Below are positions 26,523 to 28,259 of a stretch of DNA of 64,000 bases, in pieces. The DNA lies in the NCBI GenBank assembly GCA_903842345.1, contig CAIMLR010000002.1, forward strand, positions 248,001 through 312,000, given 5' to 3'. Source of the DNA: an uncultured Myxococcales bacterium. GTDB lineage: Bacteria > Myxococcota_A > UBA9042. The position numbers were made by a program, and so were the translations under genes. The notes below the pieces were generated by a model, which was given only the letters and a program-made list of their open reading frames with translations, had not been told where the DNA came from and ran no database searches. How positions within the stretch are numbered: the stretch's first letter is position 1; every line of letters starts with the position of its first letter.

Positions 26523-26552
26523 GCAGCAAGCGGTTCGCAGGTAGAAGACAGC

Positions 26553-26598
26553 AGGAGGGCCGTTCTCACGCAAGTGGGGGCGGCCCTTCTGGCTTTTT
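26553..26598 (+). terminator. Intrinsic terminator of the rpoBC cluster
   Basis: AGGAGGGCCG (26553-26562) pairs with CGGCCCTTCT (26581-26590). The inner CTCAC/GTGGG helix closes on a GCAA tetraloop. GGCTTTTT follows. It lies 30 bp after the rpoC stop. Confidence 0.92.
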
Positions 26599-26637: not shown

Positions 26638-27510
26638 ATGACACAGAAAAATTGGCCCGCGACAGTTCTGATGTTGGCTGGATTGGCGCTCGGCGCGTGC
26701 GGGGCTACGCCAGCGCCAGCGGGTGAAGGCGCGGCGGACGGCGCGGTGTCCGATACTTATCCCATGCTCTGTCAGTACCCGCTGAGTGCGCTGGCGAAGT
26801 TTCTGCCGACCCTGACCATCGACGAGGCGACTGCCGCTGCGCAGAAGCACTGCCAAATCCAGACGAACAAGAACGTCTTCCGGGCGACGTGCGCGGATGG
26901 TCGAACCTTCGTGACGTGGAGCGGCGGCTACGGCGGCGACACGTGGTGGTTCGACGCGACTGGCAAGCTCGTCGGCTACCGGTATGCCACCGACTGGGTG
27001 CACGACGGCATCTGCCTCGACAACGTCTGGGGCGAGATGTTCACCTGCGACGGACTCATCACGACCGGCGCCATTTGCCCCACGCCGACGGACGCGTCGG
27101 ACACCAGCGACACGGAGCCCGACACCGTTGACGAGGGCTCCGACGCTGCGCCCGACAGCCTCGACGTCGCCGCAGACATCCCCGCCGAAAGCACGGTCTG
27201 CGCCTCCCAAGCGGATTGCGCCGCCGACAAGTGGTGCAACTACACCGGCTGCGGCTTCACGATGGGCCAGTGCGTCGCCAAGCCCACCGACTGCGCCGGG
27301 CAATTCGCGCCCGTCTGCGGCTGCGATACCCACAGCTACGACAGCGCCTGCCACGCGCAAAAAGCCGGCAAGTCGATTGCCGCCTACTCCGCGCCGTGCC
27401 TCGGAAGCGGCTGTGCCCCCGCGTGCGCGAGCGGCTACACGTGCGTGGATTGCGCGTCCGCCGGCGTCCAGTGCCTCGCGCCCGGGCAGCAGTGCGTCGG
27501 CGGAAAGTAA
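26638..27510 (+). CDS. Lipoprotein with a Kazal-like domain
   Basis: A 290-residue protein with a lipoprotein signal ending LALGAC (Cys near residue 21). Residues ~40-150 form an unassigned Cys-containing domain with two Trp-rich strands. An Asp/Thr-rich linker follows, and the C-terminal ~105 residues are Cys-rich. They include PVCGCDTHSYDSACHAQKAG, the pattern of bacterial Kazal-type protease-inhibitor-like domains. It is probably surface exposed. The next gene, 92 bp on, encodes another lipoprotein. Whether it inhibits proteases cannot be read from sequence; the P1 site is not certain. Confidence 0.75.
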   Translation: MTQKNWPATVLMLAGLALGACGATPAPAGEGAADGAVSDTYPMLCQYPLSALAKFLPTLTIDEATAAAQKHCQIQTNKNVFRATCADGRTFVTWSGGYGGDTWWFDATGKLVGYRYATDWVHDGICLDNVWGEMFTCDGLITTGAICPTPTDASDTSDTEPDTVDEGSDAAPDSLDVAADIPAESTVCASQADCAADKWCNYTGCGFTMGQCVAKPTDCAGQFAPVCGCDTHSYDSACHAQKAGKSIAAYSAPCLGSGCAPACASGYTCVDCASAGVQCLAPGQQCVGGK

Positions 27511-27602
27511 CAAAGTTCGCGCGCCGGCAAAAAGTCCCGCGGCAAAAACCGCCAACGCGCGAATACCTTCTTGCGCGGCATTTTCCGCGCCCGGAGGTTG
27601 CC

Positions 27603-28259
27603 ATGGTTCGTTTCCTGACTCCCCTCATGCTCGTGCTTCTGGCGGCGTGTGCGACGGCCCCGCACGCGGATGCTGATGTCGGTTCCGCGGATGCGCCCGC
27701 GCAACTGCCGCTGCCGGTGCACGTCGCAATGCCCGCCAAGCCGCTGTTTATCGCGCCGCAGCCGACGCCGGGCCTCGTTGCGCTCGCCAACCTGAGCCAG
27801 CAGCAGCCGACCGCGGTGGTCAAGGCGGCGCTGGAGAGCGCGGTGCAGGGGCTGCTGTACACGAGCGAGTCGGACTATCCGTTTCAGGTGTTTGTACTGC
27901 CAGGCGCGGGTGCGCCCCACGTGACGGCTTGGAACATCAAGCAGAAGGTGGCGCCGATCTACGTGCCGCGCCCCGAGACGCTGCCGCTGGCCAAGCGCGC
28001 GGTGGAGGCGCGGACGCTGTCGACGCTCTTCAAGAACTACGTGGTCCCGCAAGATTGGTGGGGCGACGACGAGAAGGCGCGCGCGCCCAAGTTCCAGCAG
28101 TTGAAGAAGCTGCTGACGGCGCAGCTCCGCTACGTCCACGTCTACCGCGTCGGGCCCAAGACGCCGTGGGGGCTGTCGCCGGATATCGACGTGTTCATCG
28201 TCGGCACGACGGCGCAGGGCGACCTGGTCGTGCTGTGGACGGTCGCGATCGAGACCTGA
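27603..28259 (+). CDS. NuiA-like (nuclease A inhibitor family) lipoprotein
   Basis: A 218-residue protein. ATG 27603 with CGGAGG upstream gives a lipoprotein signal ending LLAAC (Cys 16), which rules out a longer in-frame reading that crosses the upstream gene. The mature part matches the Anabaena NuiA pattern as I recall it: ALESAVQGLLYTSESDYPF, then VPQDWWGDDEK, KFQQLKKLL, VYRVG and a DVFIVG strand. NuiA binds and inhibits a sugar-non-specific nuclease. Here a lipid anchor would place it in the envelope, so it could restrain a secreted nuclease or protect the cell. The inhibitory residues were not checked. Confidence 0.8.
   Translation: MVRFLTPLMLVLLAACATAPHADADVGSADAPAQLPLPVHVAMPAKPLFIAPQPTPGLVALANLSQQQPTAVVKAALESAVQGLLYTSESDYPFQVFVLPGAGAPHVTAWNIKQKVAPIYVPRPETLPLAKRAVEARTLSTLFKNYVVPQDWWGDDEKARAPKFQQLKKLLTAQLRYVHVYRVGPKTPWGLSPDIDVFIVGTTAQGDLVVLWTVAIET

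Follow-up and report, generated by a model that had tools for sequence, protein, structure and literature searches.

NuiA is a known cytoplasmic inhibitor that forms a pair with the nuclease NucA. The C-terminal Thr135 of NuiA reportedly binds the catalytic metal of NucA, whilst Glu24, Asp75 and Trp76 are said to touch the active site of the enzyme. In PMC5758888 NuiA is described as a competitive inhibitor whose binding site overlaps the DNA site. For NucA-NuiA the pKd stated in PMC5374557 is 11.49, and NuiA is there called intracellular; the residue labels in that source appear to be swapped between the NucA and NuiA chains.

Two genes resembling inhibitors, here called gene A and gene B, are found in the window, which is the whole stretch of 64,000 nucleotides that was analysed from an uncultured Myxococcales bacterium. 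A sequence-only reading of these genes had proposed that they form a self-protection pair, with a Kazal-like lipoprotein acting on proteases and a NuiA-like lipoprotein acting on a non-specific nuclease, thereby protecting a producer of lytic enzymes from itself.

Organisation of the locus

Gene A (26638 to 27510) encodes a predicted lipoprotein of 290 amino acids with an N-terminal domain containing Cys and Trp and a C-terminal Kazal-like Cys-rich module, and gene B (27603 to 28259) a predicted lipoprotein of 218 amino acids with a C-terminal NuiA domain. Both start with ATG, are adjacent on the forward strand with 92 bases between them and lie downstream of rpoC. A strong stem of 18 pairs that resembles a rho-independent terminator is found after rpoC (26552 to 26591, forward strand), and as it stands between rpoC and the two genes, A and B probably form a separate transcription unit. 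At the start of each product there is a signal sequence followed by a Cys in a lipobox-like setting, LALGAC in A and VLLAAC in B, and the quoted motifs are all present, PVCGCDTHSYDSAC in gene A and SESDYPF and VPQDWW in gene B, thus the description of two real, neighbouring lipoprotein genes on the same strand was accurate.

For comparison within the genus the host genome (G000, 95.7% complete) was set beside four congeners (G001 to G004), the draft genomes compared being 88-96% complete. From the isolate names we take the genomes of this genus to be assembled from lake samples.

Gene B and the NuiA family

By family match and modelled fold gene B is a clear predicted nuclease inhibitor of the NuiA family. 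The domain (residues 74 to 218; 27822 to 28256, forward strand) scores 91.6 bits on the Pfam NuiA profile (PF07924), far above the cut-off of 22.1 (E 6.6e-26), and phmmer matches gene B to PDB chain 2o3b_B, which is NuiA in the NucA-NuiA complex, at 5.4e-15. The structure model, in which the mean pLDDT per ten-residue block is above 80 from residue 71 on and mostly above 90, superposes on this chain with a Z of 18.9 and an rmsd of 1.9 Å over 135 of 135 residues (66 to 218 of the model on 1 to 135 of the chain), with Foldseek giving an E of 4.1e-12 and a TM of 0.87 by target.

In the alignment the positions of Glu24, Asp75, Trp76 and Thr135 of NuiA are taken in gene B by Glu89, Asp151, Trp152 and Thr218, and for the C-terminal Thr this is also confirmed by the superposition, which runs across all 135 residues of NuiA so that Thr218 falls on Thr135. 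Glu89 lies within SESD (residues 88 to 91; 27864 to 27875), Asp151 and Trp152 within PQDWW (residues 149 to 153; 28047 to 28061) and Thr218 in the terminal Glu-Thr (residues 217 and 218; 28251 to 28256), all on the forward strand. Family, fold and contact residues are therefore all in place, and the NuiA half of the sequence-only reading stands. Within the genus the NuiA domain is under purifying selection (dN 0.09-0.19, dS 0.5-1.5).

The structural comparison of gene B also returned Maf1 and phage Dip at a Z of 5-6, which is taken as a common arrangement only, and no viral fold matched at an E of 0.001 or better. A viral or plasmid origin was rejected, as no relative was found in viral contigs or phages and the plasmid matches, 22 records, were all cyanobacterial.

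An inhibitor without its nuclease

NuiA is found in all five genomes of the genus and in 30 of the 282 genomes of the phylum. A profile search for the NucA family, PF01223, found it in 18 of the 282 but in no genome of the genus; if the five are independent, the probability that incompleteness hid it in every one is about 1e-6. Three further endogenous nuclease families were considered as the target and rejected, since they too are absent from the five genomes: PF13930, PF14040 and PF04231, which occur in 8, 2 and 87 of the 282 phylum genomes respectively. The absence of all four families contradicts self-protection of the producer as far as NucA-type enzymes are concerned.

In the phylum as a whole PF01223 is missing from 26 of the 30 genomes with NuiA, the four that have it being G084, G091, G154 and G203; when only NuiA matches with an E below 1e-15 are counted it is present in 4 of 22. 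Co-occurrence of the two families across the phylum is weak, with PF01223 in 4 of 30 genomes with NuiA and in 14 of 252 without (p 0.11). NuiA without PF01223 is found in two named strains, Nannocystis pusilla DSM 53165 and N. bainbridge BB15-2, as well as in the genomes of L127 and L138, and it may be that Nannocystis and the host genus have recently lost their nuclease. Among the families listed (25 of 103) for 92 proteins at 30 loci, no nuclease turns up repeatedly next to orphan NuiA genes, with PF01223 occurring in two members (G084 and G203, in the latter 1.7 kb from NuiA) and the other families in at most three. The proteins scanned were 91 of 112 listed neighbours together with the G084 nuclease, the 21 omitted being mostly small or distant open reading frames.

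Both genes are present in the cyanobacterial MAG of L133, whose phylum, with 194 genomes, served as a control. NuiA was found in 18 of these, 14 of which also have PF01223; the four that do not are among the weak NuiA matches, and one of the nucleases (G479) has internal stops. The proportion of NuiA genomes with PF01223 is thus 14 of 18 in cyanobacteria against 4 of 30 in Myxococcota, a difference with a p of 1e-5 uncorrected for relatedness. The nuclease is the next gene in eight of nine cyanobacterial plasmid NuiA loci inspected, which were chosen from the 22 records as top matches and a hand-picked spread, the exception being Nodularia.

Within Myxococcota a cognate pair is found in G084, a genome of the same class (MAG CAINDP01, L112/L126), where a lipoprotein NuiA (L112:7873-8394) has as its immediate upstream neighbour, on the same strand, a PF01223 nuclease with a signal peptide (L112:8476-9339, E 3.5e-38). 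This NuiA is 46% identical to gene B over the domain. The arrangement indicates that an anchored NuiA and a secreted NucA can occur as a pair, and on gene order and family matches it ties the anchored form to putative NucA-type enzymes. It is the best evidence for self-protection somewhere in the class, not in the host.

Export and the active-site plug across the phylum

Of the NuiA open reading frames of Myxococcota, 27 of 31 have a signal sequence and lipobox-like Cys, called by rule of thumb and not by SignalP, against none of eight from cyanobacteria. Of the four without a called signal (G203, G260, G231, G210), that of G260 has a plausible WAGC lipobox missed by the rule and that of G210 has its 5' part absent from the frame.

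The C-terminal ET is exact in 28 of the 30 frames with an intact 3' end, the final T is kept in 29 and one ends ER; of the 30 that hold the SE.D part, 29 retain its SE. These counts come from the 31 frames found by profile search, for which strong divergence at the motif sites could be missed, and relatives found by the TSESD pattern were excluded from them. A PQDW-like motif is kept only in a subset of the family, which suggests that the interface varies.

The genome G091 (L108) has two NuiA genes, one keeping SESD and ET, the other having SQTD and LER in their place, so that both contact motifs have been lost naturally. NuiA lipoproteins of L102, L113, L088 and L127 have N-terminal segments resembling a helix-hairpin-helix (HHH_3, below the Pfam cut-off), which judging by this likeness might bind DNA, and in that of L106 DUF6748 takes the place of this segment. 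The L106 gene belongs to G237, where the NuiA lipoprotein (L106:7231-8313) is convergent to a lipoprotein-like true serpin (L106:8506-10293) scoring 273.8 bits in Pfam. Serpins are found in 20 of the 30 NuiA genomes against 93 of the 252 others, with a p of 0.0026 that is uncorrected, including for phylogeny and genome size (282 genomes); the host itself has no serpin.

Gene A and its Kazal-like module

The module of gene A (residues 188 to 254; 27199 to 27399, forward strand) matches the Kazal profiles (PF00050, PF07648) weakly, with 19.6 bits against a cut-off of 21 and 19.3 against 22.8, and the matched part of the profiles is limited to positions 3-29 of 49 and 4-31 of 48. One orthologue, that of G003, is above the Kazal_1 cut-off with 22.9 bits. 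By comparison with ovomucoid domains P1 was assigned to Gly221 and the spacer to Ser236 in gene A, with P1 being Gly and the spacer Asn being replaced by Ser in all four orthologues. Among 80 distinct Kazal-like CG(C) stretches (121 sources compared) the spacer Asn is found in 71, whilst a range of residues stands at P1 (Lys 18, Asp 11, Ala 9, Gly 7, others). The module is common in the class, as 30 of 36 relatives match gene A somehow, mostly by way of it, and the last 103 codons of gene A are under purifying selection in the genus (dN 0.12-0.20, dS 0.5-0.8). The structure model of gene A, with a pLDDT of 41, is unusable for the Kazal fold.

As the match is below cut-off, P1 is Gly and the spacer Asn is lost, protease inhibition by gene A seems unlikely, and the sequence-only reading of it as a Kazal-like protease inhibitor is not upheld; the module, common in the phylum, probably serves structure or binding rather than the inhibition of serine proteases. 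The N-terminal domain of gene A (residues 45 to 147; 26770 to 27078, forward strand) has no Pfam match; it has weaker copies elsewhere in G001, G002 and G004, and represents a small uncharacterised lipoprotein family.

Conservation of the pair

The two genes are adjacent in three of the five genus genomes (the host, G003 and G004), among which a VOC gene is found on differing sides of the block, which means that one of them, block or VOC, has moved. In G001 gene A is by rpoC on one contig and gene B by TlpA and M1 peptidase genes on another, neither of them close to a contig end, and in G002 gene B is present with gene A absent beside it. TlpA, M1 peptidase and VOC were named from a reading of the open reading frames and not by family search. 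The pair is therefore conserved in part, standing in three genomes and being split or incomplete in two, and the inhibitory contacts have likewise fared differently, being lost in A and kept in B. A functional Kazal-NuiA pair was rejected as a candidate, weakened by the P1 and spacer loss in gene A and by this incomplete conservation.

In G002 two small genes on the reverse strand (L098:9144-9897) are found between rpoC and nuiA, HEPN/MNT toxin-antitoxin-like by eye, and occupy the place of gene A in other congeners.

Possible function of the two genes

It is about an even call that gene B is an exported, anchored NuiA that plugs foreign NucA-type nucleases, with gene A being a separate Cys-rich lipoprotein that probably does not inhibit serine proteases. 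The product of gene B would be exported and lipid-anchored, and with its C-terminal Thr and the Glu of SESD it would block NucA-type (DRGH) DNA/RNA endonucleases at their metal-containing active site, in the manner of NuiA on NucA. The nuclease would be one released or delivered by neighbouring microbes and encountered in the periplasm or at the surface. Since neither the producer nor any other genome of its genus has a NucA-family nuclease, a foreign origin of the target is most likely, and with plug residues under purifying selection, predicted export and no enzyme at home, a foreign target is the simplest explanation. The target could also be a nuclease of a non-NucA family.

It might be assumed instead that gene B restrains a secreted nuclease of the producer itself, belonging to another family than those searched, much as the operon-like order of G084 and the nearby nuclease gene of G203 would suggest. 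This seems rather unlikely, as all four searched families are absent in the genus, PF04231 is not associated with NuiA (10 of 30 against 77 of 252 genomes, p 0.83) and, among the listed neighbour families, no nuclease recurs by NuiA apart from those of these two genomes. That 26 NuiA genomes have no PF01223, and that some homologues carry HHH_3-like or DUF6748 segments, would also fit a recruitment of the NuiA fold in this phylum for a role other than inhibition, for example binding of DNA or envelope proteins. There is a small chance that this is so, however the active-site residues, and above all the exact C-terminal ET in nearly every complete frame, are hard to explain without a target that has a metal site.

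Least probable, and in our view very unlikely, is that A and B act jointly as a shield against proteases and nucleases. The block is kept in three genomes despite the differing position of VOC, and both the serpin beside NuiA in G237 and the excess of serpins in NuiA genomes are in keeping with such a shield, but the Kazal score of A and the changes at its P1 and spacer positions, the separation of the genes in G001 and the missing A in G002 all speak against it, whilst the serpin association takes no account of phylogeny or genome size and does not extend to the host.

Extending the reading of gene B as an anchored inhibitor of foreign nucleases to the phylum, it is tentatively proposed, as a possibility somewhat short of probable, that the widespread exported, lipid-anchored orphan NuiA proteins of Myxococcota are broad immunity proteins against the DRGH-type nucleases of other organisms. 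They would have been cut loose from a cognate nuclease and kept for the active-site plug, in some lineages being joined to DNA-binding-like segments or placed beside serpins, and would there help to shield a cell surrounded by lytic enzymes against hydrolases in general. If anchored, nuclease-free NuiA is common in Myxococcota, it would be a case of a dedicated inhibitor serving as defence against extracellular nucleases, of which no description was found in the literature searched. As cultured Nannocystis strains carry orphan NuiA genes, the idea is directly testable.

Comparison with known systems

With Kazal-type serine protease inhibitors gene A shares the C-x7-CG pattern, a conserved Tyr and a partial Pfam match. 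It differs from them in falling below the cut-off, in its P1 residue, which is Gly, in the replacement of the spacer Asn by Ser, and in an extra Cys after CG, with the C-terminal 17-20 profile positions unmatched.

Gene B belongs to the same Pfam family as NuiA of Nostoc/Anabaena PCC 7120 (PDB 2o3b, 1j57, 1ktu), with the same fold and contact positions. Whereas that NuiA is cytoplasmic and inhibits the sugar-nonspecific NucA, gene B encodes a predicted exported lipoprotein in a genome with no NucA-family nuclease; it thus departs from the pair of nuclease and intracellular inhibitor on both sides, by the missing enzyme and by the signal sequence with its lipobox-like VLLAAC. Closer to gene B is the NuiA of G084, which likewise has a lipobox, the NuiA domain, SESD and the C-terminal ET, but which has a nuclease as its upstream neighbour on the same strand.
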